A stretch of DNA of 39,483 bases from Pirellulales bacterium (lineage in GTDB: Bacteria; Planctomycetota; Planctomycetia; Pirellulales; Thermoguttaceae): contig JAFGDS010000075.1 of the NCBI GenBank assembly GCA_016931995.1, positions 1 to 39,483 of the forward strand, written 5' to 3'. The position numbers and the translations under genes are program-made. Shown here piece by piece: positions 17,480 to 33,996 of the stretch. The notes under the pieces are model-generated. The model searched no databases, had not been told where the DNA came from, and worked only from the letters and a program-made list of their open reading frames with translations. How positions within the stretch are numbered: the first letter of the stretch is position 1; the number at the start of each line of letters is the position of its first letter.

Positions 17480-18979
17480 TTAAAAGTCACGCCCTACGGG
17501 CGCGGCGGATTGGTTCAGGTGCTGGGAGAGACGTTGGACAACGTGACCTTGGGGGCTACGGATCGTCACCTCCAGAGACATTTGGCCCACAAGACTGTGC
17601 GTTGCGCACCCGAAGCAGGGGTCGTACGCCCGGAACGCCATTTCCACCATGTTCAGCAGACCTTCGGTGACCACTTTCCCCTTGCCGATCAAGGCACTGG
17701 CCGCCCGCTTGATCGACATGGAGATCGGCGCGTTGTTGTTGGTAGTGCCGACGATCAGATTGACGCTGGTCAGAATGCCACGATCGTCGGTCGTGTAGTG
17801 GTGCGTGAGCGTGCCGCGCGGGGCCTCGACGCCGCCGATTCCCTCGGTGGGCGTCTCGGTGGGAAGTACCCGATAGTCCTTGCCGGTAATCTCCGGATCG
17901 TGAGCCAGATCGACCCATCGCTCGGCGGCGTAGAGGAGTTCGATCAACCGGGCCCAGTGCGTCGCAAGCGTGTGATGCACGGGCTTGCCGCCCAGGGTCT
18001 CGTAGAACTTGTCGTACTCGATTTGCGCCAGCGGTGTGGCCATGCCCTCGGCAGCGTTCAAGCGTGACAGTGGAGTGGCCTTGTAGACGCCGGAATCGAC
18101 GCCGTCGACAAATCCCTTCCAGCCTACCTTCTTGAGGTACGGAAACTTGAGGTAGCTCCACGGCTCGACCCGCTCGGCCACGTACTGGCGATAGTCGGCG
18201 GCCGGGTATTTGGCGTGTTCCTTGCCGTCGGGGCCCGTGACGCGAATCTGACCATCGTAGAAGTTCACGTAGTTGTTCTCATCGACGGTACCCATGTTGT
18301 AGGTGCGATGAACGTAGATGTCGCCGGTGATCAGCTTCAGGTAATCGCTATTGCCCAGCACGACGTCCTCGAAGAGCTTGAGCGAGAACCGGGCGAATTC
18401 GACGGCCTCGAGGCCGAGTTGCTCGATCTCGCGGCGCTGCTCCTCGTTGATGCCGCGACTGACTCCGCCGGGTAGTCCCCAGTTGGGATGCACCTTTCGC
18501 CCGCCCATCAGCTCGATCAGGTGGTGGCCGTCGCGGCGCATCTTGAGCACCTTGCCGGCGATCTCCAGGCCGACTTTGTGAATGATGCCGAGGATATTGC
18601 GCTCGGCAACCGGGGCGGTCGGTCCGACGACGAAATCCGGCCCGGCCAGGGCGTAGAAGTGCGTCGTGTGGTCGGTGGCGAAGAAGATGCTGTAGAACAG
18701 TTCGCGGAGCTTCTTGGCCGTCGGGGGCGGATCGACGTGGAACAGCGCGTCGAGCGCCTTGGTGGCGGCCACGTGGTGGGCCTCGGGACAGACACCGCAA
18801 ATTCGAGACGTCAGGTTGGGCATGTCCTCGGCTGGCCGGCCGACGCAGAAACGCTCGAACCCGCGCAGCTCCGGGATTTGCAGGTAGACGTTAGCCACGT
18901 CGCCCTCGTCGTCCAGGAAAATGTCGATCTTGCCGTGCCCTTCCAGGCGGGTGATCGGGTCAATGGAGATGCGTTGCAT
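17480..18979 (-). CDS. mvhA: [NiFe] hydrogenase large subunit, group 3c-like
   Basis: 499 residues carrying the active-site nickel and iron. The N-terminal ligand motif is R-I-C61-G-V-C64-P-E-A-H-H and the C-terminal one D-P-C455-F-G-C458-A-T-H461. It resembles F420-non-reducing (Mvh) hydrogenase large subunits, and its neighbours MvhG, MvhD and HdrA support the group 3c assignment. A 38-residue tail follows His461; in many hydrogenases such a tail is cut by an M52 protease during nickel insertion, but no intact protease gene nor hyp genes are in the window. Last gene of the operon, 15 bases after mvhG. The final residues may be shaped by the integrase relic abutting the stop codon. Confidence 0.9.
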   Translation of the reverse strand: MQRISIDPITRLEGHGKIDIFLDDEGDVANVYLQIPELRGFERFCVGRPAEDMPNLTSRICGVCPEAHHVAATKALDALFHVDPPPTAKKLRELFYSIFFATDHTTHFYALAGPDFVVGPTAPVAERNILGIIHKVGLEIAGKVLKMRRDGHHLIELMGGRKVHPNWGLPGGVSRGINEEQRREIEQLGLEAVEFARFSLKLFEDVVLGNSDYLKLITGDIYVHRTYNMGTVDENNYVNFYDGQIRVTGPDGKEHAKYPAADYRQYVAERVEPWSYLKFPYLKKVGWKGFVDGVDSGVYKATPLSRLNAAEGMATPLAQIEYDKFYETLGGKPVHHTLATHWARLIELLYAAERWVDLAHDPEITGKDYRVLPTETPTEGIGGVEAPRGTLTHHYTTDDRGILTSVNLIVGTTNNNAPISMSIKRAASALIGKGKVVTEGLLNMVEMAFRAYDPCFGCATHSLVGQMSLEVTIRSPQGHVVQRLSQHLNQSAAPVGRDF

Positions 18980-18994
18980 GGTTCAAGCTCCGAA

Positions 18995-19990
18995 TCATTT
19001 CTTGGCTAGCGAACCGTTGCCGTCGGCCGTCTTCGCGCGGCGCAAGTGGCTGGCTGCAAGACCGAAACGGTAAAACGTCCCCACGGGATCCGGGATGCCG
19101 TCGCGGATGATCCGGTCGATTTCCTCCGGATCGGTCGAGTCGATCATGGACGAGAGCGCCGCCATCATCCGGGCGCCATGATCGTGCGCGCCTTCGTTGG
19201 GGCCGTAGCAGCCGATGCACGGCGAGCCCACCTGCGGGCAGCGGGCGCCGCAACCCGCTCGGGTGGCGATCCCGCAGCAAAGGAGACCTTGTTCCAACAG
19301 GCACGTCTCTTCGTCGGGAATGATCTCCCAGGTACGGTAGAACTTTTTGACCTTCTTTTCATTCCTTTTCCGCGGACATTCCTCGCAGACGGTGGTCTCG
19401 GCGCCGATCACCGAGCCCGGCGGCGGCAGGGTGTTGCCGACAATGGCGGTGATGGCGTCCCAGATCCGATCCGCCTCGGGCGGGCAACCGGGCAGATAGT
19501 AGTCCACGGACACCGTTTGATCCAACGTCCGAACGGTGTCGTAGAATACCGGCAAATGAAGAGTCCCCTCGGCCACTTGGGTCTTGGGTTGCGGCTCGAC
19601 GCCCTCGGGATTCTCGGTCGAGGGCGTCTCGTGATAGGCGGTCTGGAAAACACCGCGGCGGTTGGTCGCGTTGGCCAGTCCAGGGATGCAGCCCTCGTGG
19701 GCGCACGAGCCGAAGGCCACCAGCACCTTGGATTTTTTGCGCAACAATCGGGCCATGTACTCCTGCTCGCTGGTGCGGATGCCGCCGTTGAACAGGCAGA
19801 CGTCGATGCTCCCATCCGCCATCTTCTCCACGTCGTGGACCTTGGCGTCGACGGCCACCGGCCAGAAGACGATGTCGAACAGGGCGTCCACGTCGAGAAT
19901 CTTCTCATTGATCGCCAGGACGGCGATTTCGCAGCCGCCGCACGACGCGGCCCAATAGAGGGCCAGTTTTCCTTTCGGCTCGCCACTCAT
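18995..19990 (-). CDS. mvhG: [NiFe] hydrogenase small subunit, MvhG-like
   Basis: A 331-residue cytoplasmic small subunit with no Tat signal, as expected for group 3. Proximal-cluster ligands are C17-G-G-C20, G-S-C96-A-H-E-G and P-G-C169-P-P. A C-terminal cysteine-rich part (C202, C205, C230, C238/C239, C247, C251, C258, C261) can hold the medial and distal [4Fe-4S] clusters. It passes electrons from the NiFe site in MvhA to MvhD. The start overlaps the mvhD stop by 4 bases. Confidence 0.9.
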   Translation of the reverse strand: MSGEPKGKLALYWAASCGGCEIAVLAINEKILDVDALFDIVFWPVAVDAKVHDVEKMADGSIDVCLFNGGIRTSEQEYMARLLRKKSKVLVAFGSCAHEGCIPGLANATNRRGVFQTAYHETPSTENPEGVEPQPKTQVAEGTLHLPVFYDTVRTLDQTVSVDYYLPGCPPEADRIWDAITAIVGNTLPPPGSVIGAETTVCEECPRKRNEKKVKKFYRTWEIIPDEETCLLEQGLLCCGIATRAGCGARCPQVGSPCIGCYGPNEGAHDHGARMMAALSSMIDSTDPEEIDRIIRDGIPDPVGTFYRFGLAASHLRRAKTADGNGSLAKK

Positions 19991-20484
19991 GGTTGCACCT
20001 CCATCGCCTCGGCGTGTTCGGCGGCAATCTCCTCGAAGGCCTCCTCCCGACGGACGCCGTCGTGCAGGACGTCGGACCAGTTGAGCGGCCCGAGTGTCCG
20101 CACGTCCGCCACAAACGTGTTGATCGATTCGGCCAGGTACTGCCCTTCGGCCGCCGACGCCCAGACGAGTCGCAGTCGGCCGGGCTCAATCCCCATCTGC
20201 TCCAGGAAATAGCGGAGCATCACGTCGCGTCGCATCGTCTTGTAGTTCTGTTCGATGTAGTGGCAATCGCCAGGGTGGCAGCCGGCCACGAGCACGCCGT
20301 CGGCCCCGAGGGCAAACGCCTTCAGCACGAAGCTCGGATCGACCCGGCCGCTGCACATCACCCGAATGATCCTCACCCGGGGCGAGTACTTGATCCGCGC
20401 GGTGCCGGCCAAGTCGGACGCGGTGTAGCTGCACCAGTTGCACAGAAAGGCAACGATCTTGGGCTTGAAGGTTTCGTCAGACAT
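19987..20484 (-). CDS. mvhD: MvhD, [2Fe-2S] linker between hydrogenase and HdrA
   Basis: A 165-residue F420-non-reducing hydrogenase delta subunit. Cysteines C15-N-W-C18, M-C44-S-G and G-C69-H-P-G-D-C74-H-Y match the family's [2Fe-2S] site. In methanogens MvhD physically bridges MvhAG to HdrA, so its place between hdrA and mvhG is diagnostic. The ORF overlaps the 3' end of hdrA by 8 bases. Confidence 0.93.
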   Translation of the reverse strand: MSDETFKPKIVAFLCNWCSYTASDLAGTARIKYSPRVRIIRVMCSGRVDPSFVLKAFALGADGVLVAGCHPGDCHYIEQNYKTMRRDVMLRYFLEQMGIEPGRLRLVWASAAEGQYLAESINTFVADVRTLGPLNWSDVLHDGVRREEAFEEIAAEHAEAMEVQP

Positions 20485-22474
20485 AGTTCATCAGTCCTTC
20501 CAACTCTTCGTTGACCTGCTGGTCGGCGAAGAGGTGTTGTTTGGCGGCGCCCGAGGGACACGCGGCCACGCACGTGCCGCAGCCCTTGCACAGCGCCTGG
20601 TCGATCACGGCGATCTTCCGCTCCTCGTCGGCTCGAATCGCCTGGTAGGGGCAAAGTGCGATACACGTCTTGCAACCGGAGCACATCTTCTCGTCCACCC
20701 AGGCCGTGTTGGGCTCCAACTCGATCTGGCCGGCGTCGATGAGCATCAGTGCCTTGGCGGCCGCGGCGTCGGCCTGGGCGACCGTGTCGGGGATGTCCTT
20801 GGCGGCCTGGCAGGCGCCGGCCAACAGCACGCCGTCGTTGGCCGTGTTGACCGGGGCGAGTTTGGGATGTTTCTCCAGGAAGAATCCTTCGGCGGAGCAC
20901 GAGATGCCGAACTCGCGGCGGACCTCGTTGGCGTCCGCCCGCGGCTCCAGCGCCACGGCCAGGATCACCATGTCGACGTTGATCTGGCGAATCTTGCCCA
21001 ACAGCGTATCGTCGACCTGCATGACCAGGCCGCCCTCGGCCGTGGTTCCCTGCCCGGCGACCGGCGTGACGTCGGCGACCTTGCCGCGGATGAACCGCAC
21101 CCCTTCGTTCTGCACCCGGTTATAGAACTCCTCAAAACCCTTGCCTGGCGCGCGAATGTCGATGTAGCAGTTGTAGACCTCGGCGTCGGTCTTTTCGCGG
21201 ACCAGATGAGCGAGCTTCAGGGCGTACATGCAGCACACCCGCGAGCAATAGACGTGGTAGTTGGCGTCGCGGCTGCCGACGCAATGGACGATGCCGACGC
21301 GTTTGGGCGTCGAGCCGTCGCGGAGGACGAGCTTGCCGCCGGTGGGTCCGCCGGCGTTCAATAGCCGCTCGACCTCGAGGCTGGTGTAGACGTTCGGATA
21401 CTTGCCGTATCCGTAGTAGGGAATGACCGAGGGGTCGAACGCCTGGAAACCGGTGGCCACGATGATCGCCCCCACTTCGTACTCCTCGATCTTCTCCTGC
21501 TGGTCGAAGCGGAAGGCGTTCCGCTCGCCGCAAGCTTCCACGCAGCCCTGCTTGCACTTGCCGCGGGTGATCTGGAGGCACACCTCGGGATCGACCACGG
21601 GCACCGGCGGCACGGCCTGGGGGAAGGGAATCCACACGGGCTTGCGCAGGCCCAGGCCCTGATCGAAGGCGTTGGGGAACTTCGCCTTGGTGAACACGCA
21701 CCCGTCGATGCACTGCATGCAGCCGACGCAGAGGTTCTCGTCGATGTATCGCGGCTTCCGGCGGACCTTGACCCGGAAGTTGCCTACCGATCCCTCGACC
21801 GACTCGACGGTCGAGTAGGTGAGCATTTTGATGTTGGAATGGAGCTTGACGGCGGTCATTTTTGGGGTGAGGATGCAGGCGGCGCAGTCGAGCGTGGGAA
21901 ACGTTTTGTCGAACATCGCCATGTGGCCGCCGATCGACGGTTCGCGTTCGACGAGGATCACCTCGCGCCCCGCGTCGGCCAAGGTCAGCGCGGCCTGGAT
22001 GCCGGCGATGCCGCCGCCGACGACCATGGCCCTGGGAACGATCCGCACGAACTGCCGCTGCAGCGGCTCGTGCTGGGCAACGCGGCGGACCGCGGCGGCC
22101 AAGTGGGCTTCGGCCTTTTCCAACGCCTCTTGTTTGTCCTCGGTGACCCAGGCCACTTGCTCGCGGATATTGGCGATCTGGACGAGGAAGCGGTTCAGGC
22201 CCGCGTCCTCGGCGGCTCGGCGAAAGGTGGGCTCGTGGAGGTTGGGCGAGCAGGCGGCCACGACGATCCGGTTCAGTCCGAACTCGACGATGTCCCGCTT
22301 GACCAGCTCTTGGCCGGGATCGGCGCACATGTACTTGTAATGCCGAGCCAAGGCGACGTGGGGTAATTGCTCGGCGAACTTCGTGAGCGCCTCCACGTCG
22401 ATCGCGCCGGCGATGTTGCTGCCGCAGTGGCAAACATAGACGCCGATCCGCAGTTCTTCGTCGCTGGTGATCAT
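20477..22474 (-). CDS. hdrA: HdrA-like electron-bifurcating flavoprotein
   Basis: 665 residues from the ATG at 22474, which overlaps the upstream stop (ATGA). The frame is open to 22849 but that part lies inside the neighbouring gene. Features: N-terminal Fe-S domain (C15-H-C17), FAD motif G-G-G-I-A-G (153-158), the D-C197-A-A-C200 pair, a cluster at C249/C252/C255/C259 with further cysteines at 299, 307, 311 and 315, and two C-terminal ferredoxin clusters (C598-C608 and C629-C639). HdrA splits or merges electron pairs between a low-potential partner (ferredoxin) and a high-potential one. HdrB and HdrC are not next to it; CCG proteins associated with ETF stand in their place. No MvhD fusion: MvhD is separate. 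Confidence 0.92.
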   Translation of the reverse strand: MITSDEELRIGVYVCHCGSNIAGAIDVEALTKFAEQLPHVALARHYKYMCADPGQELVKRDIVEFGLNRIVVAACSPNLHEPTFRRAAEDAGLNRFLVQIANIREQVAWVTEDKQEALEKAEAHLAAAVRRVAQHEPLQRQFVRIVPRAMVVGGGIAGIQAALTLADAGREVILVEREPSIGGHMAMFDKTFPTLDCAACILTPKMTAVKLHSNIKMLTYSTVESVEGSVGNFRVKVRRKPRYIDENLCVGCMQCIDGCVFTKAKFPNAFDQGLGLRKPVWIPFPQAVPPVPVVDPEVCLQITRGKCKQGCVEACGERNAFRFDQQEKIEEYEVGAIIVATGFQAFDPSVIPYYGYGKYPNVYTSLEVERLLNAGGPTGGKLVLRDGSTPKRVGIVHCVGSRDANYHVYCSRVCCMYALKLAHLVREKTDAEVYNCYIDIRAPGKGFEEFYNRVQNEGVRFIRGKVADVTPVAGQGTTAEGGLVMQVDDTLLGKIRQINVDMVILAVALEPRADANEVRREFGISCSAEGFFLEKHPKLAPVNTANDGVLLAGACQAAKDIPDTVAQADAAAAKALMLIDAGQIELEPNTAWVDEKMCSGCKTCIALCPYQAIRADEERKIAVIDQALCKGCGTCVAACPSGAAKQHLFADQQVNEELEGLMNYV

Positions 22475-24675
22475 GCCGTGGACTCCGCAACTTCTGCCAT
22501 TGATTTCAGAGTTATGCCGAGACTCTCGTAGACCAGTTCTCCCAAATCCGCCACCCGCAGACGCCCTTCGGCCCCGACCGTCTTCACCGCGTCCTGGAAC
22601 ATGACGAGGTCCTTGGGGCAGGCGACCACGAGGCACTGTACGCCGGGCAAGGCGAGCGCCTCGCGGACGCGATTCTCGGCGGGACGTTCTTGGCTCGTCG
22701 GCGCGTCCTTCATCCAGATCCGCCCGCCGCCCGCGCCGCAGCAGAAGCTGTTGGGCCCATGGCGGGGCATCTCCACGAGCCGCGTGCCCACCGCGCCCAG
22801 CACCCGCCGCGGCGCGTCGTACACGCCGTTGAACCGCCCCAGGTAGCACGGATCGTGATACGTCACCACGTAATCCAGCTTGCGATGCAGTCGCAACGCC
22901 CCACCGCGGAGCAACTCGTCGAGCAGTTGCGTGTAGTGGAGCACGGGCGCGACGACTTCGTCATACTCGTTCTTCAGCGCGTTGTACGTGTGCGGGTCGG
23001 TGGTCAGCAACTTGCGGAAGCGCGCGCCGGAAAGCTCCTTGGCGTTCTTCTCGCGGAGCATCGCGAACAGACCCTCCTCGCCGATTCGCCGCACGTCGTT
23101 GCCGGCATTCTGCTCCTTCTCCATCAACAACCCGACGTCCACGCCGGCATGGCGCAGCACGCGGGCAATGGTCCGTGTAACCTCCTGGACCCGCTGGTCA
23201 TACGAGGCATAGTCGCCGACGAACCACAAATACTCGACCTCTTCCTTGCGGGCATCCTTGAGCGTGAAGTCCAGCGGCTTGGTCCAGTCGGGCCGCTTGC
23301 GGGGCGACTGGCCGAAGGAGTTGCCGTAGCGCTGGAAGTTCATCAAGGCGTCCTGGAGACCTTCGTCCACCTGGCCTTGGTCGACCAGGTGGCGCCGTAG
23401 GTCGACGATCAATCGCGGATGCTGGACGAAGACCGGGCAGATTTCCTCGCACGCCCGGCATGAGCAACAGGCCCACAATTCCTCGGGCCGCACGCGAGAA
23501 TCGTGGAGGCTTGGCGGCTCGCCGTTGGCCTTCGCCGGGGTGCGCAGAAGCTGCGAATCCACTGCCTGGACCACGTCGCGCGGCGAGAGCGGAAAGCCGC
23601 ACTGGTTGGCGGGGCAGGCTTCCTGGCACTTGCCGCACCACGTGCAGGCGTCGACCTGGAGCAACTGCCGCCACGTGAGGTCGCGGACGTTCGTCACGCC
23701 CGACTCAACGGCAACGGCGAGCCGGCCCGGCGGATCAGCGCTGTGCAACAGGATGTTCGCCGGGGACGATATCAGGTGAAACGCCTTGGTCAGCGGAATG
23801 CACGCGATCAGCCCGAACGCCAGCAGGCCGTGCGCCCACCAGACGCCCTGGTGCAGCGCGCGGATCGCATCGACCGACAGCGGTTCAAACGCCTTGCCCA
23901 AGCCATAGCCAACCGGGGCCCAGATCGCGGCGGGAAACACTCGCCCGCCGTCGGCGATGCGGTTCACTTGAACGTCCTGACGCTCGCGGCCAACGTGCAA
24001 ATGCTCGCGGAAGCCCATCTCGTCGAGCACGCGGATCTTGGCGTCGAGGCCCTCGGCGGCAGCCACTCGGGCCTCGATGTGAAAACCCTCGGCGATCCGC
24101 AGCCCTTCGGCGACGAAGCCGGTGACGGCGACGAGAGCGATCGTGGCGAGGAACGGAAAGCCGTCCCAGAGGCTCACGCCGGTTCGCGTCGCCTGCAACC
24201 GCTTGGGGCGAACCAGATAGCGGCGATACGCGGCCATCCCCAGCCCCAAAATCAAAACGACGCCGAAAACGTCCAACGCAATCTCGAAGAGGCAGTAGAA
24301 CTTGCCGCGGAGCAGTTGGAAATCGAACGGCAGATTCGTGAAATCCTGGTCGATCGTCGCCAGCGCCGTGCCGAGGAACAGCACCGCCATCCCCCAGAGA
24401 ATCGCCCAGTGCATGACCAGGGCGAACAGGTCGGGCGAAAGCCGACTCTGGAAAAGGGCCGCGGGGGTCCACCGCGCGAGTCGGCCCGGGTGAATCGCCG
24501 CCAACAACAGCCGGGGGACGCTTTCGACTCCCGGCTCCGAGCGGCCAAGAAACCATTTCCGCGCTCGCCAGTACACACCGGCCGCGAAGGCCGCCAGCAC
24601 GATGGGGATCATCACGTAAAGCGCGATTTCCGCCCAGTGCGGGACGTTCCACATGATGGGCCGAGCGTACTCCAT
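22471..24675 (-). CDS. Membrane ETF:quinone oxidoreductase-like CCG Fe-S protein
   Basis: 734 residues. An N-terminal NarI/DsrM-like membrane part (helices from about 16, 88, 125, 172 and 275) carries candidate haem ligands H89, H275, H282 and H300. A dicluster ferredoxin domain follows (C344/C347/C350/C354 and C403/C406/C409/C413), then a C-terminal CCG region. Its second CCG half keeps Y-H-D-P-C and F-C-C-G-A-G-G-G; the first half has lost its cysteines (T-D-P-H-T-Y-N-A-L-K-N-E-Y), as in ETF-linked members such as DgcB and the EMO proteins (known family trait, recalled). It lies 4 bases after etfA, so it probably passes ETF electrons to menaquinone or the reverse. An unusual loop of about 55 residues sits at 195-250. 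Confidence 0.85.
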   Translation of the reverse strand: MEYARPIMWNVPHWAEIALYVMIPIVLAAFAAGVYWRARKWFLGRSEPGVESVPRLLLAAIHPGRLARWTPAALFQSRLSPDLFALVMHWAILWGMAVLFLGTALATIDQDFTNLPFDFQLLRGKFYCLFEIALDVFGVVLILGLGMAAYRRYLVRPKRLQATRTGVSLWDGFPFLATIALVAVTGFVAEGLRIAEGFHIEARVAAAEGLDAKIRVLDEMGFREHLHVGRERQDVQVNRIADGGRVFPAAIWAPVGYGLGKAFEPLSVDAIRALHQGVWWAHGLLAFGLIACIPLTKAFHLISSPANILLHSADPPGRLAVAVESGVTNVRDLTWRQLLQVDACTWCGKCQEACPANQCGFPLSPRDVVQAVDSQLLRTPAKANGEPPSLHDSRVRPEELWACCSCRACEEICPVFVQHPRLIVDLRRHLVDQGQVDEGLQDALMNFQRYGNSFGQSPRKRPDWTKPLDFTLKDARKEEVEYLWFVGDYASYDQRVQEVTRTIARVLRHAGVDVGLLMEKEQNAGNDVRRIGEEGLFAMLREKNAKELSGARFRKLLTTDPHTYNALKNEYDEVVAPVLHYTQLLDELLRGGALRLHRKLDYVVTYHDPCYLGRFNGVYDAPRRVLGAVGTRLVEMPRHGPNSFCCGAGGGRIWMKDAPTSQERPAENRVREALALPGVQCLVVACPKDLVMFQDAVKTVGAEGRLRVADLGELVYESLGITLKSMAEVAESTA

Positions 24676-24679
24676 GGCT

Positions 24680-25651
24680 CTACCCTCGCTTGGCTTCGAT
24701 GGCCTCGGTCAGCGCCGGCAACAGATCCAACACGTCGACCTCCGCGCCGTAATGGGCAATGTCAAAAATCGGCGCCTGGGGGTCGGTGTTCACGGCGATG
24801 ATCAGGTCCGCCCCCTTCATTCCTTCCTGGTGCTCGGGCGCCCCGCTGATGCCCAGGGCGAGATAGAATTTCGGTTTGACGGTCATGCCCGACTTGCCCA
24901 CCTGACGCGTGGCGGGCAGCCAACCCTGGTCAATCACCGGGCGCGAGGCGCAGACGGCGCCGCCGAGCGCACCGGCCAGATTCTCCGCCAACTCCAGGTT
25001 GTCCTTCTGCTGAATCCCCCGGCCAACGGAAACGAGAACGTCTTGCTGGGTAATGTCGACGTCGCCGGCCTCGGGCAGGACCCAACCGTCGAAGCGGACC
25101 GCGCCCGGCTCGAGCGGCGAGGGAAGCTTACGTGGCTCGATCTTGGCTTGTCCCGCCGCGTCGGCGGGGCGAAAACTGCCCGGCAGCACCATGCAGATCG
25201 CCGGCGCCCCGTCCACGCGGACCTCGGCCATCATCTTGCCGCCGCAGAACGAGGTAGCAACGCGAAGCGCCTCGCCCTCGGGCTGAATCTCCTTGCAGCC
25301 GGTTACAAGCGGGGCGTTGATCCTCGCCGCAAGCAAGGGCGCCACGTCCCAGCCGATCGACGTGGCGCCTAGGAGCACGGCGCGCGGCTGCTCGGCCGCG
25401 GTCACCTCCTGGAGGGCCGCCACGTAGGGGCCTGGTGCATAGTCGGCCAACCGCGGATCGTCGACCACCATGATCCGATCCGCCGCGCCCAGGGCCGGCG
25501 CATGCGCGGCGCCGTTGGGGCCGAGAACCAATGCCAACACCTGGCCGCCCGTCGCCGAAGCGATTGTCCGGCCGGCGGCCAGCAGTTCCCATGTTACGTC
25601 GGCCAGCGCGTCGCGATAGACTTCGGCCAAAACCAGAACGTCCTTTGCCAT
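24680..25651 (-). CDS. etfA: Electron transfer flavoprotein alpha subunit
   Basis: 323 residues. The C-terminal FAD domain has the signature S-R-P-V-I-D-Q-G-W-L-P-x-x-R-Q-V-G, then L-G-I-S-G-A-P-E-H and A-V-N-T-D-P-Q-A-P-I-F-D-I-A. Its ATG overlaps the etfB stop by one base (TAATG). It pairs with EtfB to carry electrons between flavin dehydrogenases and the CCG oxidoreductases encoded on both sides. No acyl-CoA dehydrogenase or other ETF donor is in the window, so the donor is unknown. Whether the ETF bifurcates cannot be decided from these motifs. Confidence 0.95.
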   Translation of the reverse strand: MAKDVLVLAEVYRDALADVTWELLAAGRTIASATGGQVLALVLGPNGAAHAPALGAADRIMVVDDPRLADYAPGPYVAALQEVTAAEQPRAVLLGATSIGWDVAPLLAARINAPLVTGCKEIQPEGEALRVATSFCGGKMMAEVRVDGAPAICMVLPGSFRPADAAGQAKIEPRKLPSPLEPGAVRFDGWVLPEAGDVDITQQDVLVSVGRGIQQKDNLELAENLAGALGGAVCASRPVIDQGWLPATRQVGKSGMTVKPKFYLALGISGAPEHQEGMKGADLIIAVNTDPQAPIFDIAHYGAEVDVLDLLPALTEAIEAKRG

Positions 25652-26421
25652 TATTTCACCAATCCCTTCTGGGCGAGAATATCGACGATCCGCGACGCAA
25701 TCTCCGTTTCCGAACCGGAAAGCATCTCGGCGCGGCTTCCCGCGGCGGGCGGGTAAAGCCTCGCGATCGCAGTCAGCGGTTCGGAAGAGACCGCCGCGGC
25801 CGCCGACTCCTCAAACTGCGTCGTCTTCATCGCGCCGCGAATGCGGCTCACCGGGACGTACCGCGGAGGCTGGTCGGCCCCCAGGATCCCCAGCACGGCG
25901 GGCAGCTTGACGTTCATTCTCGCCATCACGGCCCCGGGGAATTCCTTGAACGCGGCGACGGCGCCGGGCTCCGCGCCCACCGCGACGCCGCGGATGACGC
26001 CCACGTAAGGCATTCCGAGAGCCGCGGCGAGAAACGGGGCCACGCCGCCGTCCAACTCATCGTGGGCCTGGACGCCGACAAGCACCAACTCGGGCGCGAT
26101 CGGCTTGATGGCTTCGGCATAGAGGACGGCCGCCGCTCGGGGAGGCGGGGGCGCGTCGTCCCGCGCGATCTTGACGATCCGGTCGGCCCCCTTGGCCGCC
26201 GCCGTGTAGAGCGTGTTGTCCACGTCGCCGAAATCCAGCGCCACGACCGTGACGTGTCCGCCGTGGGCCTCCTTGAGCAGCAGCGCCTGCTCGAGCGCAT
26301 GGTCGTCGGACTCGTTCAGAAGGAACGACGCCGAGCCAAAATCGAATTCCGTGCCCGAAGGCGCGATCTCCAGCGGCTCGATCAAATCGGGAACCTGACG
26401 GACCACCACGGCGATGTTCAT
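25651..26421 (-). CDS. etfB: Electron transfer flavoprotein beta subunit
   Basis: 256 residues with the EtfB opening N-I-A-V-V-V-R-Q-V-P-D and the nucleotide-binding segment L-V-G-V-Q-A-H-D-E-L-D-G-G-V-A-P-F-L-A. The latter sits between the canonical and bifurcating patterns (D-G-D-T-x-Q-V-G in bifurcating ETFs), so the type is open. The start has AAAGGAG upstream and overlaps the stop of the HdrD-like gene by 4 bases. Confidence 0.95.
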   Translation of the reverse strand: MNIAVVVRQVPDLIEPLEIAPSGTEFDFGSASFLLNESDDHALEQALLLKEAHGGHVTVVALDFGDVDNTLYTAAAKGADRIVKIARDDAPPPPRAAAVLYAEAIKPIAPELVLVGVQAHDELDGGVAPFLAAALGMPYVGVIRGVAVGAEPGAVAAFKEFPGAVMARMNVKLPAVLGILGADQPPRYVPVSRIRGAMKTTQFEESAAAAVSSEPLTAIARLYPPAAGSRAEMLSGSETEIASRIVDILAQKGLVK

Positions 26422-27632
26422 GCAACGCTCCTTTCACCCAAATCCATCGCTTCGGCCAGCAATTCGATGATATCGCGGACCTTGACGCGGCCCTCGAGGC
26501 CCGTCACCTTGGCGGCGTCCTCGAACCGCGACAGCTCATAGGGACACGAGACGGCCAACGTGTCGGCGCCACTGTCGGCGGCCTCGCGGACGCGCTGGTC
26601 GGAAAGCCGCTGGCCGCCGTGGGCGACGATATGCGCGTCGAGCCACATTCCCCCCCCTCCGCCGCCGCAGCAGAGCGAGTCGTCGCGGTTATGGGCCATC
26701 TCCACCAGTTTCACGCCGGAAATCAATCCCAAGAGCTCTCGCGGCGGATCGTAACACCCGCAACGTCGGCCCACGCAGCAGTTGTCGTGATACGTGACCA
26801 CCGTCTCAACCGGCTTGACCATAAGCGGCCGCAATTGCTCCATGTATTCGGCCAGGAACGTGGTGTAGTGCTGCGCCGGGTACCACGCGCCAAACCGCGG
26901 ATAGAAGTTTTGCAGGGCCCGGTACGCATGTGGATCCAGCACCACCAGCTTGCCGAAATCGTACTTGTCGAAGAGCTTGCGGTTGTCCTCGACCAAGGTC
27001 TCGAACAGTCCCTCCTCGCCGAACATGCGATCGCATTCGCCTACGGCCTTCTCCTTCGTCCCGAGAATGCCCCAGGCAACGCCAAGCTGGGTGAGGATCC
27101 GCGCAAAGGCCCTGGCAACCACCTGGTTCCTGGGATAGTAGGACGGATAGCAGCCGACCAGCCAGAGCACGTCGACAGGCCGCGGTTCGCGGCTAAGATC
27201 GAGCACGCGGACGTCCAGGCTCTTGGTCCAGTCGAGCCGCGCGCGGGGTGACTTGCCCAGCACGTTGCCGTACTTGAGCACGTTCTGAAACGTCTCCTGG
27301 AGTTCGGCCGGCGGCTGGATGCCTCGCTGCATGGCCGCGTCCCTCAGGGCCGGCCAGAGACTCTCGGTCAGTTCGATTCCCCGCGGGCAGCGTTTCGAGC
27401 AGGCATAGCACGCCACGCACATCCACAGCGAGGGGCTCTCCAACAGCTTGTCCAGGTTTCCTGAAGCCGCCTGAAGAAGCAGATTCCGGGGAGGGAACTC
27501 CATAGCGCTGCCCAGGGGACAAGTGGCCGCACAGAGTCCGCACTGCATACAACCCAGGGGTGGTTTGCCGTAGCCCGACTTGCCGAGCTGTTCCAGCAAT
27601 TCCGCGCCGGCTTGTTTCCGCGCCGTAGACAT
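26418..27632 (-). CDS. Soluble HdrD-like (HdrC-HdrB type) CCG Fe-S protein
   Basis: 404 residues, first gene of the operon. Two [4Fe-4S] clusters (C28/C31/C34/C38 and C72/C75/C78/C82) are followed by two CCG-type halves. The second keeps Y-H-D-N-C-C-V-G-R and L-C-C-G-G-G-G-G-G, though the last C-x-x-C is reduced to S-C-P-Y-E. The first half keeps only two of its cysteines (G-C-Y and G-E-C-D; L-D-P-H-A-Y replaces the C-x-x-C). It is a paralogue of the membrane CCG protein 3 kb downstream but has no membrane helices. It may be the ETF- or HdrA-facing electron carrier that stands in for HdrBC. GGGAGGA is 5 bases before the ATG and lies within a small hairpin (27637-27650, ATCCTC-CC-GAGGAT). Confidence 0.85.
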   Translation of the reverse strand: MSTARKQAGAELLEQLGKSGYGKPPLGCMQCGLCAATCPLGSAMEFPPRNLLLQAASGNLDKLLESPSLWMCVACYACSKRCPRGIELTESLWPALRDAAMQRGIQPPAELQETFQNVLKYGNVLGKSPRARLDWTKSLDVRVLDLSREPRPVDVLWLVGCYPSYYPRNQVVARAFARILTQLGVAWGILGTKEKAVGECDRMFGEEGLFETLVEDNRKLFDKYDFGKLVVLDPHAYRALQNFYPRFGAWYPAQHYTTFLAEYMEQLRPLMVKPVETVVTYHDNCCVGRRCGCYDPPRELLGLISGVKLVEMAHNRDDSLCCGGGGGGMWLDAHIVAHGGQRLSDQRVREAADSGADTLAVSCPYELSRFEDAAKVTGLEGRVKVRDIIELLAEAMDLGERSVA

Positions 27633-27706: not shown

Positions 27707-27722
27707 AGCAATGAGCGTGCCA
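27707..27722 (-). promoter_or_regulatory. Sigma54 promoter of the Etf-Hdr-Mvh operon
   Basis: On the minus strand TGGCAC (27717-27722), 5 bases, TTGC (27708-27711) followed by T: an exact match to the -24/-12 consensus. Transcription would start near 27696, about 64 bases before the first start codon at 27632. Two sigma54 activators are encoded directly upstream. Most of the gap 27633-27857 is therefore promoter and leader. Confidence 0.85.
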
Positions 27723-27857: not shown

Positions 27858-29192
27858 TCAAACAAGCCCGTGCTTCGCCAGTTTGTCACGAAAGGTCGAG
27901 AGCTTCATCCCCAGAGCCGCAGCCGCGGCCGACCTGTTTCCGCCCGTGGCTTCCAATGCGCCTTGGAGCAACTCCCGCTCCGTCTTGTCGATCATCTCAT
28001 GGAACGGGCCGGACGAAACCTGCAGTTTCCGTGCCGCCGCGTGGAGTTCGCCCAAGAGCAGGTTCGCGGTGATCGCGCCGCCCCCGACCAGGTAGACGCG
28101 CTGGAGCATGTGGGCCAACTCGCGGACGTTGCCCGGCCAGTCGTGCCGTCGCAAGACTTCGATGGCGGCGGGTTCCAGCCGCGGGGCGCCGTCCTTGGCG
28201 AACCGCTTCAAGAGGTGTTCCGCCAGCAGGGCAATATCCTCGCGCCGTTCCCGAAGCGGTGGGATGTTGACCCGCAGCACGTCGAGCCGATAGTAAAGGT
28301 CCTGCCGGAAGCTCCCGCCGGCGATCCTTTGCAGCAGGTCGTGCTTGGTCGAAGCCACAATCCGGACGTTCGCGCGGATCGTCGTCATGGAGCCGACGCG
28401 CTCGAACACCTTCTCCTCGATGGCCCGCAGGAGCTTGGCCTGCTGTTCCATGGGGATGTCGTCCACGTCGTCCAAGTAGAGTGTGCCAGCTTCAGCCAGC
28501 TCGAAACGGCCCAGCCGTCGCTGCTCGGCGCCCGTAAACGAACCTTTCTCGTGACCGTAAAGTTCGCTTTCGATCAGCTGGCTGGGAAACAAGGTGCAGC
28601 CAACCTTAACGAAGGGGTTCGCGCGACGGTGGGAGTTCCGGTGAATCGTCGACGCCACCAGGTCCTTGCCGACGCCCGTCTCGCCGCACAACAGCACGTT
28701 GGCGTCGCAGCGCGCGCAGATTTCGATCAATCGCCGTACGCCCTGCATGGCCGAGGATTGGCCCACCACGGCCTGGTCGATGTTGCCAATGGTTGTTTCG
28801 ATCGGCTCGGCGGTGGAGGCGACCGCGCCACGGCGCTTCGATTCGATGCGGGCCAGGAGCGGGAAGACGTCTTCGTTGCGGAAGGGTTTGGTCAAGAAGT
28901 CGAAGGCCCCGAGCTTGCCCGCCTCGACCGCCAAAGGGATGCTGCCGTAGGCGGTCATGATGATCACTTCCGGCTGGGGAGCGTTACCCTGCCTGATGCG
29001 ATGGAGCAGCTCAAGGCCGTCGATGTCCGGCATCTTCAGGTCGGTCACCACGACGTCGAAACCGCCGTCCGCGAGTTCCTTCAGGGCCTCGGCGCCGTCG
29101 CGCGCCGTGATCACCTCGTGGCCCTGCGCCGAGAGGTCCTGGGCCAGCGTGACCCTCTTCATCTCTTCGTCGTCGGCCACAAGGATTCTCAT
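27858..29192 (-). CDS. NtrC-family sigma54-dependent response regulator
   Basis: 444 residues from the ATG at 29192, where the receiver fold starts (M-R-I-L-V-A-D-D-E-E); an ATG at 29234 would overlap the kinase gene further. The receiver is complete: D7, D8, phospho-acceptor D51, T80 and K102. The AAA+ domain has Walker A G-E-T-G-V-G-K-D (170-177), sigma54 loop G-S-F-T-G-A (217-222) and Walker B L-Y-L-D-D-V-D-D. A Fis-type HTH closes the protein (about 418-444). It should be phosphorylated by the adjacent six-helix kinase and activate a sigma54 promoter; the promoter 136 bases beyond its stop is the obvious target (inference). Confidence 0.92.
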   Translation of the reverse strand: MRILVADDEEMKRVTLAQDLSAQGHEVITARDGAEALKELADGGFDVVVTDLKMPDIDGLELLHRIRQGNAPQPEVIIMTAYGSIPLAVEAGKLGAFDFLTKPFRNEDVFPLLARIESKRRGAVASTAEPIETTIGNIDQAVVGQSSAMQGVRRLIEICARCDANVLLCGETGVGKDLVASTIHRNSHRRANPFVKVGCTLFPSQLIESELYGHEKGSFTGAEQRRLGRFELAEAGTLYLDDVDDIPMEQQAKLLRAIEEKVFERVGSMTTIRANVRIVASTKHDLLQRIAGGSFRQDLYYRLDVLRVNIPPLRERREDIALLAEHLLKRFAKDGAPRLEPAAIEVLRRHDWPGNVRELAHMLQRVYLVGGGAITANLLLGELHAAARKLQVSSGPFHEMIDKTERELLQGALEATGGNRSAAAAALGMKLSTFRDKLAKHGLV

Positions 29193-29205
29193 GGTGCGCG
29201 AGTCG

Positions 29206-30501
29206 TCATGGTGAAGAGGGCGAGAGTGTTTCAACGGGGTTGAGAAGGACGGAGAAGACGGTTCCCCGTTCCACGGCGCCGCGGACTTCGATCCGCCCGC
29301 CCATTTCGCTGATCAACATGCGACACAACCCCAGGCCCAAGCCCGTGCCGCCGCTGTCGCCGTGCGTGGTGAAAAACGGCTCAAAAACCTTCTCCAGTTG
29401 AACGCGCGGAATGCCCACGCCCGTGTCCGCCACCTCCACGGCCACGGAGTTCATTTGGTCGTCGTCGCGGTCGCCCAATGCCCGGGTGCGGAGCGTCAAC
29501 GTTCCTCCGCCGGGCATGGCGGCCAAGGCGTTCGTGCAGAGGTTGAAAAGAACCTCTTGGAGCGTATAGGGGTCGCCCTGGACCGGAGGCACGCGTCCCA
29601 ATTCCGTGCGAACGCGCACGTCCTTCGCGCGAGCCGTGTCCACCAACGGCAACGTGGCCTCGACCACGGCGTTGACGTCCGTGGGTTGAAGCGTGATGCC
29701 TTTCGGGCGCGCGAACGCCTGCACCCGCTTCGCCGTCCGCTCGATTCGCTCCAAGGCCGAGACCATCATCCGCACGTACTCCGTGGCCTCCGGGTCGTCG
29801 CCGACCGCCTCCCCGATCTTACGCAGGCAGTTCTGCGCGCCGTCCAGCGGATTGGCGATCTGGTGGGCGATGCCGGCGACCAACTGGCCGATTCCCAGGA
29901 GTTTCTCCTTCTGGCGGAGTTCCGCGTGAGCGCGGTCCACGTAGCGGCGAATCGCCGTGGTGAAATAGACGGCAATCCAAAGAGTGCTGCCCAGCGCCGT
30001 GAACAACGCCAGCGCATACAGCCCGTCGATCGGCGGCAAATCGGCTGGCTCGCCGCGAAAGTGCAACGCGAAACGAGGTATCAGCTCCAGCCATTCCAAC
30101 AACAGCAGCCCACCGACCAGCAGCGTGGCCACGGTGGCCACCGCGTACGGCATGTGGCCGCGCAGGTACATGCCCGCGATGATCATGTGGAAAACGAAAT
30201 AGAAAACGAACGGGTTTTGCGGGAAATCGGCGAAATACAACAGCGTCGCCAAAGCGAGAAGGTCAAATAGGATCTGAAATAAGATATTCCGCTCGACGCC
30301 TTGTGGGGTGACCACCCAATCACGCTGGCTCAACTTGAAGAGCATGTTGTACGCAAGAACAACCGCGCCGACGACGTACAGCGGCAACGGCCGCGGGAGC
30401 ACTCCCAGTGCCCAGGCGACCGTGGCCGCCACAAAAATCGCCGCGCACGCTCCAAAGCGGAGCGTCACCAGCCAGCCGGCCCCTTCGGGTGGAAGTCTCA
30501 T
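29206..30501 (-). CDS. RegB-like membrane histidine kinase
   Basis: 431 residues. About six membrane helices cover residues 10-185, then a dimerisation domain with the H-box A-G-I-A-H213-Q-I-A-N-P-L and a HATPase domain (N-x-x-x-N-A-L-A-A-M, D-T-G-V-G-I, G-G-T-G-L-G-L-G-L). The N96-P-F98 motif in the loop after the third helix, with flanking F-D-L-L-A-L-A-T-L-L-Y and H105, resembles the quinone-sensing G-G-x-x-N-P-F region of RegB/PrrB kinases, though the two glycines are F-P here. A quinone redox input would suit an operon that touches the quinone pool (inference). Followed by the NtrC-type regulator 13 bases on. Confidence 0.88.
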   Translation of the reverse strand: MRLPPEGAGWLVTLRFGACAAIFVAATVAWALGVLPRPLPLYVVGAVVLAYNMLFKLSQRDWVVTPQGVERNILFQILFDLLALATLLYFADFPQNPFVFYFVFHMIIAGMYLRGHMPYAVATVATLLVGGLLLLEWLELIPRFALHFRGEPADLPPIDGLYALALFTALGSTLWIAVYFTTAIRRYVDRAHAELRQKEKLLGIGQLVAGIAHQIANPLDGAQNCLRKIGEAVGDDPEATEYVRMMVSALERIERTAKRVQAFARPKGITLQPTDVNAVVEATLPLVDTARAKDVRVRTELGRVPPVQGDPYTLQEVLFNLCTNALAAMPGGGTLTLRTRALGDRDDDQMNSVAVEVADTGVGIPRVQLEKVFEPFFTTHGDSGGTGLGLGLCRMLISEMGGRIEVRGAVERGTVFSVLLNPVETLSPSSP

Positions 30502-30639: not shown

Positions 30640-32229
30640 TCAGTACGAGGCCATGTCCCAAACGATATGATCGGCCAGGGCCGTGATCGTGCGCGCGTCG
30701 AGCGAGGCGAAGCCGCCCAGCGAATCGGGTTGCACCGCCAGGATCGTCACCTTGCCGGACGCTTCACCCGGATCGACGTCGAACTCGGGTTTGGTGTTGC
30801 GGGCGAGGCTTCCGGGCAAAAGGCCGCTGTCCCGCGCCAAGAGCACCATGACCCGATCGCACGCCCCCGCGGCCTTCAGGATATTGGCCGGCGTGAGGTA
30901 AGCCTCGCCGGGCGTCACCACCACCGGCAGCATTTTCGCCAGCAGCTTCTTGCCGAGCTGCGCTCCCAATCCCTCGTTGCCCCATAGGAGCCCCGGTCCG
31001 GCGAGCAGCTGGACCTTGTGCAGGTTGCGGTTGGTGATGGAGATCCCGCTGATCGGTTCGGGCGCGGTCCTCTTGGGTTGCCGCTCGGGTGGCTGAGCCT
31101 CCCGGGTTTGAAACACCGCGGTCAGAATGTCGGCGATCTCGTTGTCCGTGAAGGGCTCGACGGCGTAGTAGAATATCTTGTGCTTCCGATAGGCAGTCTC
31201 GGCCGCGCCACCCGATGCGCCCACGACCACGACTCGCGCGTGCGGCGCCCGCCGGTTTATTTGTTCCACGAGAGCCGGGCCGGAATCACCCAGCGACGTG
31301 GCGTCGATGAAGACCGCTCGGCCGCCATCGGCGGCCAAGGCGGCCAGCACGGCGTCGCGATCCGAGGCTTGTTCGACTTGACAACCCAGGAAAGCGAGCT
31401 TGCGGATCTGCTCGGCAGCCGACGCCGCATTGGCATTGACCAGCAGGACGCGGCGAGCGTGGCAGTTGCCCTCTTCTTCATGTCGCGTGGTGCAAAGGCA
31501 GGCGAGGAACCCTTCTCCACAGGGATCAACCGCCAGAAGGTCGGGACGATTGGCGAGCATCGTCTCGTTCACCGCCATGACGACACCGGAGATCGGCGCG
31601 GGGACGGTAAGCGTCGAGTTGGCCGACGTGGTCACCCCCGCAAACGGCAGACCCTGGTAGACCACTTCGCCGATGCGTGGTAGTCGTACCGCCGCAATCG
31701 AAGCCCCGCGGAGCCCTGGAACCACCGCGCCGACGCACGCCGATCCGTCCACCTCAATCCGCACCCAGGATTCGTCCCAGAACAACGTCGCGGCGCTCTC
31801 CCCGGTGGGCGCGGGCTCTTCGTCTCCCACGGGCGCTTCTTGACCGTCCGATGCCATCTGGCTCGTCCTGAGCACCCGTTGCACGGCCCAGACGATCTCC
31901 TCGGAGGTAAATGGTTTGGTGACGTAGTCACAAGCCCCCAGTCGCATGGCCGCCGAAGCACTGGGAATGCTCGGATAGCCCGTTATGATTAACACTGGAA
32001 CACCGGGCTTCTTCTGGCGCAACCGTTCCAGGAACTCGATGCCGTCCATGTTGGGCATCTTGATGTCCAGCAGAATGATCAAATAGTCCTTTTCGATCGC
32101 CCAGGTGAGACCCTGCCGGGCATCCGTGTTGACCTCGACCTGGAATCCCTGTCGCGAAAAGATTCGGCGGCAGGCTTGGCACACGACTTCCTCGTCGTCG
32201 ATCACCAGCAGCGTGCGATCATCAGCCAT
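30640..32229 (-). CDS. Receiver / GcvH-like / pseudo-receiver / M52-like fusion protein
   Basis: 529 residues from the ATG at 32229 (GGAGG 5 bases upstream). Residues 5-122 are a complete receiver (D11, D12, D55, T83, K105). Residues about 148-248 follow the glycine-cleavage H-protein pattern (G-A-S-I-A-A-V-R-L-P-R-I-G, P-A-P-I-S-G-V-V-M-A-V-N, P-C-G-E-G-F-L), but the lipoyl-lysine position is Asn204. A segment with C237, C244, C246, H250, C256 and H257 could bind a metal. Residues 259-376 are a second, degenerate receiver (D309 kept; acidic pair and lysine lost). Residues 405-529 resemble an M52 hydrogenase-maturation protease (G-N-E419-G-L-G; L-P-G-S; I-L-A-V-Q-P-D-S-L) with two of three metal ligands missing. 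No DNA-binding domain. It has its own sigma54 promoter. Confidence 0.75.
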   Translation of the reverse strand: MADDRTLLVIDDEEVVCQACRRIFSRQGFQVEVNTDARQGLTWAIEKDYLIILLDIKMPNMDGIEFLERLRQKKPGVPVLIITGYPSIPSASAAMRLGACDYVTKPFTSEEIVWAVQRVLRTSQMASDGQEAPVGDEEPAPTGESAATLFWDESWVRIEVDGSACVGAVVPGLRGASIAAVRLPRIGEVVYQGLPFAGVTTSANSTLTVPAPISGVVMAVNETMLANRPDLLAVDPCGEGFLACLCTTRHEEEGNCHARRVLLVNANAASAAEQIRKLAFLGCQVEQASDRDAVLAALAADGGRAVFIDATSLGDSGPALVEQINRRAPHARVVVVGASGGAAETAYRKHKIFYYAVEPFTDNEIADILTAVFQTREAQPPERQPKRTAPEPISGISITNRNLHKVQLLAGPGLLWGNEGLGAQLGKKLLAKMLPVVVTPGEAYLTPANILKAAGACDRVMVLLARDSGLLPGSLARNTKPEFDVDPGEASGKVTILAVQPDSLGGFASLDARTITALADHIVWDMASY

Positions 32230-32332
32230 GGTTTCCTCCCTTCGTGACGGTCCGGCAGGCGATCGGCGAGAAACCCCCACGGTTTCCCCAGGCCGGCGAA
32301 TCACCTCGCCCGGAGGACGGCCATCGAACAAG

Positions 32333-32347
32333 GCAATTGTCGTGCCA
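32333..32347 (-). promoter_or_regulatory. Sigma54 promoter of the receiver/GcvH/M52-like gene
   Basis: Minus strand TGGCAC (32342-32347), 5 bases, TTGC (32333-32336): an exact -24/-12 match, the same form as the promoter at 27707-27722. A start near 32321 gives a leader of about 92 bases to the ATG at 32229. The kinase and regulator genes downstream could share this transcript, since the gaps are 138 and 13 bases. Confidence 0.8.
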
Positions 32348-32472
32348 TCGCGTCCGCGTGGTGGCCAAGACCCATTCACGCGAACCGGGCCGAAAAATAA
32401 GCCCGTCCCCGGGGTGTGAGAGCAGCCTGGGAGGACTCGGCAGGGTGGCCTGAAGATTGTAGGCTTGCCACC

Positions 32473-32492
32473 GTGTATTAAAAGACATACAC
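32473..32492. promoter_or_regulatory. Dyad upstream of the second sigma54 promoter
   Basis: GTGTAT-N8-ATACAC, perfect 6-base arms, about 152-171 bases upstream of the predicted start at 32321. That is the usual distance of enhancer sites for sigma54 activators. No copy was seen at the other sigma54 promoter. Confidence 0.4.
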
Positions 32493-32527
32493 CGTATGGA
32501 TGCGCACACCCCACCTTGGACGGGAGA

Positions 32528-33919: not shown

Positions 33920-33996
33920 GACCTTCTCGCCACCGGGAACGCCGGTGCTCTCGTCCGACCCAGACCCTTTCAGAATAATCCAGCCCGGTTTCGGGA

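Follow-up and report, generated by a model that had tools for sequence, protein, structure and literature searches.

An operon that joins a [NiFe] hydrogenase and HdrA to an electron-transferring flavoprotein (ETF) and two CCG-domain proteins raises the question of where the electrons drawn from H2 would go. Such an operon occupies the minus strand (27632–17480) of a 39,483-nucleotide stretch of DNA from a Pirellulales bacterium (GCA_016931995.1, JAFGDS010000075.1; hereafter the window), which is the entire contig C117 of a 5.43 Mb host genome comprising 153 contigs and 99% complete. An open reading frame (ORF) check found all eight genes, and their order (HdrD-like, EtfB, EtfA, the membrane CCG protein CCGm, HdrA, MvhD, MvhG and MvhA) and junctions (−4, −1, +4, −4, −8, −4 and +15 bases from first to last gene) agree exactly, at re-derived coordinates, with an initial annotation made from the sequence alone. 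That annotation had also supposed that HdrBC is replaced by ETF-linked CCG proteins and had remarked on a lack of hyp genes, and both statements hold: neither HdrB nor a hyp gene is found among the eight, the cysteines of the D1 site described below are missing as a set, and HypD was found elsewhere in the genome. The operon probably encodes (we put the probability at roughly 0.55) a modular flavin-based electron-bifurcating hydrogenase with menaquinone as its high-potential acceptor. A module of B3, EtfAB and EMO (ETF:menaquinone oxidoreductase) appears to have been joined to a group 3c hydrogenase–HdrA core, since the two CCG proteins group with sHdrB3 and EtfD and share the operon.

Among proteins of solved structure, EtfD (PDB 9ojn) is the one nearest to both CCG proteins. 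It contains a linear cluster D1, a noncubane cluster D2 with His583 as its final ligand, two further clusters (D3 and D4) and a heme b held by His78 and His241; its D2 site is described as non-catalytic, and for FadF and DgcB, which are without the D1 cysteines, direct electron uptake from ETF at D2 has been suggested (PMC13083937). In phmmer alignments, three of the four D1 cysteines of EtfD are missing from the HdrD-like protein and all four from CCGm, and four of the five D2 cysteines, together with the histidine, are retained in both. Pfam detects one CCG domain in each protein, and the double CCG sites of the HdrB type are present in neither. Eight cluster cysteines, C285, C321, C322, C363 and H235 of the HdrD-like protein are invariant in 25 of 25 rows, and H89, H282, H300, eight cysteines, C610, C645, C646, C686 and H562 of CCGm are invariant in 22 of 22 (four rows in each case sHdr-like; L124–L127 and L169–L171 were dropped from the CCGm table). 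CCGm His89 aligns with EtfD His78, and His282 or His300 should be the counterpart of His241, judging by invariance rather than by direct alignment. A simple hydropathy scan placed five hydrophobic segments within the first 306 residues of CCGm and flagged a sixth at 673–694, inside the CCG domain. CCGm thus combines the marks of the EtfD/EMO family, namely a transmembrane domain, heme histidines, two [4Fe-4S] clusters and a D2 site, and the HdrD-like protein is a B3-type fused HdrC–HdrB protein encoded beside etfAB, as in type II sHdr clusters. As side observations, CCGm is longer in G031 (L169 3282–5930, 882 aa) and G053 (L168, 831 aa), and that of G031 is one long open frame in which an insert separates two parts matching the window protein.

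The AlphaFold model of the HdrD-like protein (predicted local distance difference test score, pLDDT, 77.3) has EtfD 9ojn as its top fold match (Z 27.0; root-mean-square deviation, rmsd, 3.0 over 366 residues), followed by LutA and HdrB (Z about 20, 224–235 residues). The CCGm model is weaker (pLDDT 70.4; predicted template modelling score, pTM, 0.50), and because its match to EtfD has an rmsd of 16.7 over 510 residues, the two are comparable by separate domains only; its residues 12–323 match NarI. Beyond EtfD, LutA, HdrB, 3kwl and NarI, the fold searches returned only low-Z families, and no meaning is attached to absences. In a tree of the CCG proteins (both L169 rows dropped; a join of long branches is flagged elsewhere in the tree), the HdrD-like rows group with the B3-like rows of L120–L123 (Shimodaira–Hasegawa-like approximate likelihood ratio test, SH-aLRT, 100) and the CCGm rows with EMO-like proteins. 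By sequence, the two CCG proteins are closer to EtfD than to a disulfide reductase, and they are not equivalent, one being a predicted soluble sHdrB3-like protein and the other a predicted membrane protein of the EtfD/EMO type.

In the proposed mechanism, MvhA would oxidise H2 and deliver electrons through MvhG and MvhD to HdrA, whose flavin would send one electron to ferredoxin and the other to the soluble CCG protein, where it would enter at the HdrC-like clusters; the lone D2-type site of that protein would dock EtfAB and reduce its FAD, and EtfAB would ferry electrons to the matching D2-type site of CCGm, from which two [4Fe-4S] clusters and heme b would lead to menaquinone (MK). The net reaction would be 2 H2 + ferredoxin + MK → reduced ferredoxin + MKH2, and the gene products would be expected to form a physical complex. 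The role of HdrA, rather than the ETF, as the bifurcating site is suggested by EtfB. The motif DGDTAQVGP in EtfB is a mark of bifurcating ETFs; read in 5ol2 and 4kpu as reference, it is absent from EtfB in 28 of 28 aligned rows (two of 30 rows, L058 and L165, were dropped), and the closest solved match of EtfB is 1o94, a non-bifurcating Methylophilus ETF. The ETF was accordingly rejected as the bifurcating site, notwithstanding the EtfA scores given below.

The arrangement recurs within the family. When 119 Thermoguttaceae-like genomes were searched with an HdrD-like profile at a threshold of E 1e-60, 21 were found to carry the whole unit or part of it (G027 is counted via its membrane CCG row alone, a contig end cutting its HdrD-like gene). 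The whole eight-gene order lies on a single contig in 10 genomes (G000, that of the window, G004, G044, G040, G033, G039, G003, G028, G010 and G007), and the order agrees as far as the contigs reach in seven more (G038, G046, G018, G005, G053, G031 and G027; the G038 and G005 loci are each pieced from two contigs); the genome collection supplied L089 as an additional complete locus. Recurrence of the full order on single contigs in 10 of the 119 genomes makes the arrangement more than chance. This genome search had been recommended by the initial annotation, whose treatment of the eight genes as one unit is upheld in that the two halves do not exist only as independent operons, but gives way where the hydrogenase is concerned, as discussed below. 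In G058, the contig carries the five genes through HdrA and stops 400 bases later, a stretch that holds no MvhD, and MvhDGA lies on another contig. Three genomes depart from the order: G024, a single-contig genome of 4.8 Mb, retains the five-gene core but has no Mvh within 4 kb past HdrA, an EtfA-like gene occupies the expected MvhA place in G026, and G057 retains HdrD-like and part of EtfB only. EtfB of G003 has a single in-frame stop. Flanks mostly differ between loci, with regulators recurring at some and one flank common to three loci of one genus.

Several of these loci show peculiarities of their own. The extra EtfA-like gene of G026 (L166 8060–9088) stands after MvhG, and on another contig of that genome (L058 3319–4272) an EtfB-like gene (25%) is followed by MvhA, a HycI-type protease and HypA. 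In G057 (L165 10853–11983; L086), EtfB residues 1–96 continue into a Cache histidine kinase fragment, the locus being rearranged or misassembled. The contigs of L168 and L169 (G053 and G031) end inside MvhG, with MvhA fragments at other contig ends, possibly because the Mvh copies, two per genome, differ very little.

The host genome contains a second operon, HdrC-HdrB-HdrA-MvhD-MvhG-MvhA, on contig C39, which allows the ETF-linked form to be compared with the standard one. In a quick HdrA tree (L120 HdrA rows dropped; L072, L097 and L119 are long rows), the 20 ETF-cluster rows and 17 standard-operon rows fall on opposite sides of one branch (SH-aLRT 99), and the window HdrA has 29 cysteines, of which 28 are shared by both sets, each being present in at least 35 of the 35–37 filled rows (L120 rows again dropped). 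In the MvhA tree (L075–L078 and L172 dropped; the ETF-cluster label of L041 being inferred), rows of the two kinds are intermixed, starred branches forcing at least five changes, with the labels of ETF rows still more clustered than chance; the Ni ligands C61, C64, C455 and C458 are kept in 40 of 40 MvhA rows (two of 42, L075 and L172, dropped). Pairwise distances over 10 loci, in which shared ancestry is still included (L055 is lacking for EtfB, leaving 36 of 45 pairs), correlate at r 0.75–0.91 among HdrD-like, EtfB, EtfA and HdrA, at 0.95–0.97 among MvhD, MvhG and MvhA, and at 0.59–0.80 between these two sets. On the strength of these correlations and the trees, HdrA-B3-EtfAB is read as a putative core, with the hydrogenase and the membrane protein swapped more freely. 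The same genome encodes one more [NiFe] hydrogenase large subunit, its third, which is of a different type (G000:C83 195516–196910, L001).

The 20 named records with a relative of the HdrD-like protein comprise 19 from planctomycetes, mostly Pirellulales or Thermoguttaceae, and one labelled Omnitrophota. The latter, L097, contains HdrD-like, EtfB, EtfA, CCGm and HdrA, the end of HdrA lying in another frame; the possibility that it is a mis-binned Thermoguttaceae contig was considered and is unlikely, since its GatB shares 60% identity with one of the two G012 copies and 29–48% with the other matches (18 of 20 relatives matched). An EtfB profile applied to 392 genomes of the phylum (E 1e-30; at most six candidates scored per genome, so that misses are possible) matched 20: two in Thermoguttaceae (the window and G024), four with a different type of cluster (G282, G123, G156 and G255) and 14 weaker (E 2.5e-37 to 3.3e-31). 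Seven of the weaker loci, read over 4.9–19.9 kb, are without HdrA, the other seven having been read within 1.5 kb only, and a CCGm-like gene is found in eight of the 14. As for the different cluster type, domain searches showed that in L122, one of the four, EtfB, EtfA and an EMO-like gene are preceded by GcvH-like, HdrC, HdrB, short HdrA, B3-like and cysteine desulfurase genes. EMO is a component of type II sHdr, and an EMO-like protein is present in all of the sHdr-like loci L120–L123. Type II sHdr is defined as shdrC1, B1, A, H and B3 with etfAB in a single cluster (PMC11582611), and L122 fits that definition by gene content, sHdrH aside. The SufS-type cysteine desulfurase gene of L122 (10024–11583, minus strand), which belongs to another planctomycete family, lies between the B3-like gene and EtfB.

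The direction of electron flow was approached through energetics. For H2 and ferredoxin, E0′ values of −414 and −500 mV are reported (PMC9304861); another source gives −450 mV for ferredoxin, with −74 mV for menaquinone (PMC10734219). From standard potentials, bifurcation would yield −58.7 to −49.0 kJ at 1 bar H2 and −13.0 to −3.3 kJ at 10 Pa. Because the balance is favourable until H2 falls to about 1 Pa, H2 oxidation is the likelier direction. Searches of the host genome gave a cytochrome c552 (NrfA) match at E 4.5e-145 and one weak match, as well as two matches to the futalosine-pathway family PF02621; NrfA could serve to drain menaquinol. Related flavin-based bifurcating systems can run in either direction, and the same complex, with identical anatomy, might instead make H2 in fermentation by confurcating electrons taken from reduced ferredoxin and from either menaquinol or an ETF-linked donor. 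We consider this unlikely. In its favour, the energy balance is close to zero when H2 stands at about 1 Pa, and a reference title within PMC11929135 mentions Thermopirellula, a planctomycete that produces H2; against it, the reaction would be uphill by 49–59 kJ at 1 bar and by 3–13 kJ at 10 Pa, and the menaquinol outlet is available. Between the two directions entertained by the initial annotation, confurcation to H2 is therefore the less supported and the opposite is preferred.

A somewhat less probable explanation divides the operon in two. EtfAB and CCGm would act as a conventional ETF:menaquinone oxidoreductase that takes electrons from an acyl-CoA dehydrogenase or some other dehydrogenase, and the HdrD-like protein, HdrA and Mvh would constitute a separate H2-dependent disulfide reductase that is merely co-transcribed. 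EtfD, to which both CCG proteins are closest among solved structures, serves beta-oxidation, and EtfAB with a CCG protein occurs alone, as the weaker EtfB loci with a CCGm-like gene and those without HdrA indicate. The two halves are, however, interleaved, with the HdrD-like gene ahead of EtfB and HdrA behind CCGm; the HdrD-like protein retains the D2 histidine and has no counterpart to the first of HdrB's CCG sites; and the only acyl-CoA dehydrogenase locus detected by PF00441 in the genome lies near another EtfAB, one of the three EtfA loci being about 1 kb from it on contig C69, separate from the operon. A role of the HdrD-like/ETF/EMO part in sulfane sulfur metabolism, like that of type II sHdr, with the hydrogenase giving or taking electrons, is very improbable. 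The module is indeed common to type II sHdr-like clusters of other planctomycetes, but Pfam and NCBIfam matches identify neither sHdrC1 nor sHdrB1 in the operon, and neither a short sHdrA nor a lipoate-binding protein, HdrA is of the full-length Mvh type, and a nearby GcvH-like domain is fused to a receiver and seems to be missing its target lysine.

Several observations weigh against a menaquinone-reducing bifurcating hydrogenase. Cys712 of the EtfD D2 site is conserved in neither CCG protein, and a divergent CCGm (37–43% to that of the window) occurs at four loci. One insert cluster of HdrA has a cysteine spacing unlike that of 8rvu. EtfA, unlike EtfB, scores highest to bifurcating ETFs, for which reason single-FAD behaviour of EtfAB is only presumed. 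MvhA phylogeny does not follow HdrA type; CCGm distances correlate poorly with those of the other genes (r 0.22–0.53), and EtfB correlates better with MvhD (0.80) than with HdrA (0.75), the two sets overlapping, and the mirror signal accordingly gives modest backing to a core. The distribution is patchy, with no match in 98 of the 119 family genomes, and the hydrogenase is separable, since L119 and L097 hold the five-gene core without adjacent Mvh. At 1 Pa H2, the free energy of bifurcation is −1.5 to +8.1 kJ, near zero or reversed. CdhC had no match in the host genome, and acetogenesis was on that ground rejected as a use of reduced ferredoxin.

Table 1. Features of the operon and its upstream region in the window.
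Feature	Position	Strand	Basis or remark
HdrD-like soluble CCG protein (sHdrB3/EtfD-like by sequence)	26418..27632	-	Pfam CCG + Fer4; HdrC of 5odc E 1.8e-17
HdrD-like protein, contents: HdrC-type two [4Fe-4S] clusters and single D2-type CCG site	26418..27632	-	
EtfB without the DGDTAQVGP motif of bifurcating ETFs	25651..26421	-	Pfam ETF; closest solved relative 1o94
EtfA with FAD-binding domain	24680..25651	-	Pfam ETF + ETF_alpha; solved relatives
Membrane CCG protein (CCGm), EtfD/EMO-like	22471..24675	-	phmmer to EtfD 9ojn E 6.7e-63
CCGm, contents: heme-ligand His, two [4Fe-4S] clusters, D2-type site, N-terminal hydrophobic segments	22471..24675	-	
HdrA, full length, Mvh type, ETF-cluster clade	20477..22474	-	8rvu residues 6-663; 5odc residues 6-662; tree
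MvhD [2Fe-2S] subunit	19987..20484	-	Pfam FlpD E 5.6e-51
MvhG hydrogenase small subunit	18995..19990	-	Pfam Oxidored_q6; NCBIfam VhuG under cut-off
MvhA, group 3c-type [NiFe] large subunit, RICGVC + DPCFGC ligand motifs	17480..18979	-	5odc_F E 1.3e-115
Sigma-54 -24/-12 promoter-like site, TGGCAC-N5-TTGCT	27707..27722	-	74 bp before first gene
NtrC-type sigma-54 response regulator	27858..29234	-	Pfam
Histidine kinase	29206..30501	-	NCBIfam + Pfam; ActS/PrrB/RegB model match well under cut-off

Every gene name in Table 1 that concerns the operon is backed by Pfam and NCBIfam matches, the NCBIfam ones scoring under curated cut-offs, and the most likely start of HdrA is 22474 rather than 22849 of a longer mechanical ORF. 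The promoter-like site is the sole zero-mismatch match to the sigma-54 consensus in the window; among 21 upstream regions compared with that consensus, six match at 11 of 11 positions, three at 10, four at nine and eight at fewer. A sigma-54 response regulator gene is also found upstream at L042, L163 and L164. The NtrC-type regulator likely controls the operon, and the promoter-like site and the regulator together fit a prediction of inducible expression. Further along the minus strand, a gene encoding a receiver fused to a GcvH-like domain (30640–32514), the target lysine of which is seemingly missing, adjoins a sigma-54 activator (32528–34000) and a Cache-domain histidine kinase (33997–35976). 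This set recurs at L163/L088 and L089 and partly at L164/L087, and weaker matches to it stand beside a standard Hdr-Mvh operon at L054.

No description of a single operon that combines HdrA-Mvh, a membrane CCG protein and EtfAB was recognised in the literature searched, which was mostly non-subscription and available in part, and the combination looks new. A broader proposal, to which we give slightly less than an even chance, is that the operon represents an undescribed class in which a [NiFe] hydrogenase reduces ferredoxin by draining the other electron via ETF into the quinone pool, with interchangeable parts on an HdrA-B3-EtfAB core. If so, H2, ferredoxin and the respiratory chain would be linked in a single step, and quinone-linked respiration would drive H2-dependent ferredoxin reduction through an ETF relay that needs neither the methanogen disulfide nor proton-driven reverse electron transport. 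Hdr-Mvh bifurcation, sHdr electron output and EtfD quinone reduction would then be united by one common module, and the CCG/ETF part of type II sHdr would be predicted to be an exit to menaquinone.

Comparison with known systems places the operon between several of them. With MvhADG-HdrABC of methanogens (5odc, 8rvu), it shares MvhA with four Ni-ligand cysteines, MvhG, MvhD, full-length HdrA and an HdrC-like dicluster in an adjoining subunit, but it is without HdrB, and where the methanogen complex has CoM-S-S-CoB as acceptor, it has a branch made up of an EtfD-like CCG protein, a membrane CCG protein and EtfAB. In Desulfobacterium autotrophicum, MvhADG-HdrA occurs and HdrF lies elsewhere beside EtfBA, the two not being described as joined (PMC2702500). 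EtfABCX of Thermotoga maritima (PMC10734219) has the same proposed net logic, with ferredoxin and menaquinone as acceptors, but uses NADH as donor and bifurcates at EtfAB, whereas here HdrA would bifurcate, H2 would be the donor and EtfAB would be a carrier. The heme-histidine membrane domain, D3/D4-type clusters and D2-type site are those of EtfD, EMO, FadF and DgcB (9ojn), and the missing D1 is shared with FadF and DgcB (PMC13083937); the protein of the operon differs in that it would be fed from hydrogenase–HdrA, has a soluble paralogue in the same operon and is without Cys712. Type II sHdr (PMC11582611; L120–L123) has B3-like, EtfB, EtfA and EMO-like genes in identical order, apart from the cysteine desulfurase between B3 and EtfB in L122, but the operon has a core of full-length HdrA-MvhDGA in place of sHdrC1B1A, no lipoate-binding protein among its eight genes, and, of the full type II cluster, only the B3-like protein and EtfAB. 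The operon thus lacks both the HdrB that defines MvhADG-HdrABC and the C1-B1-A set that defines sHdr, yet it may work like both.

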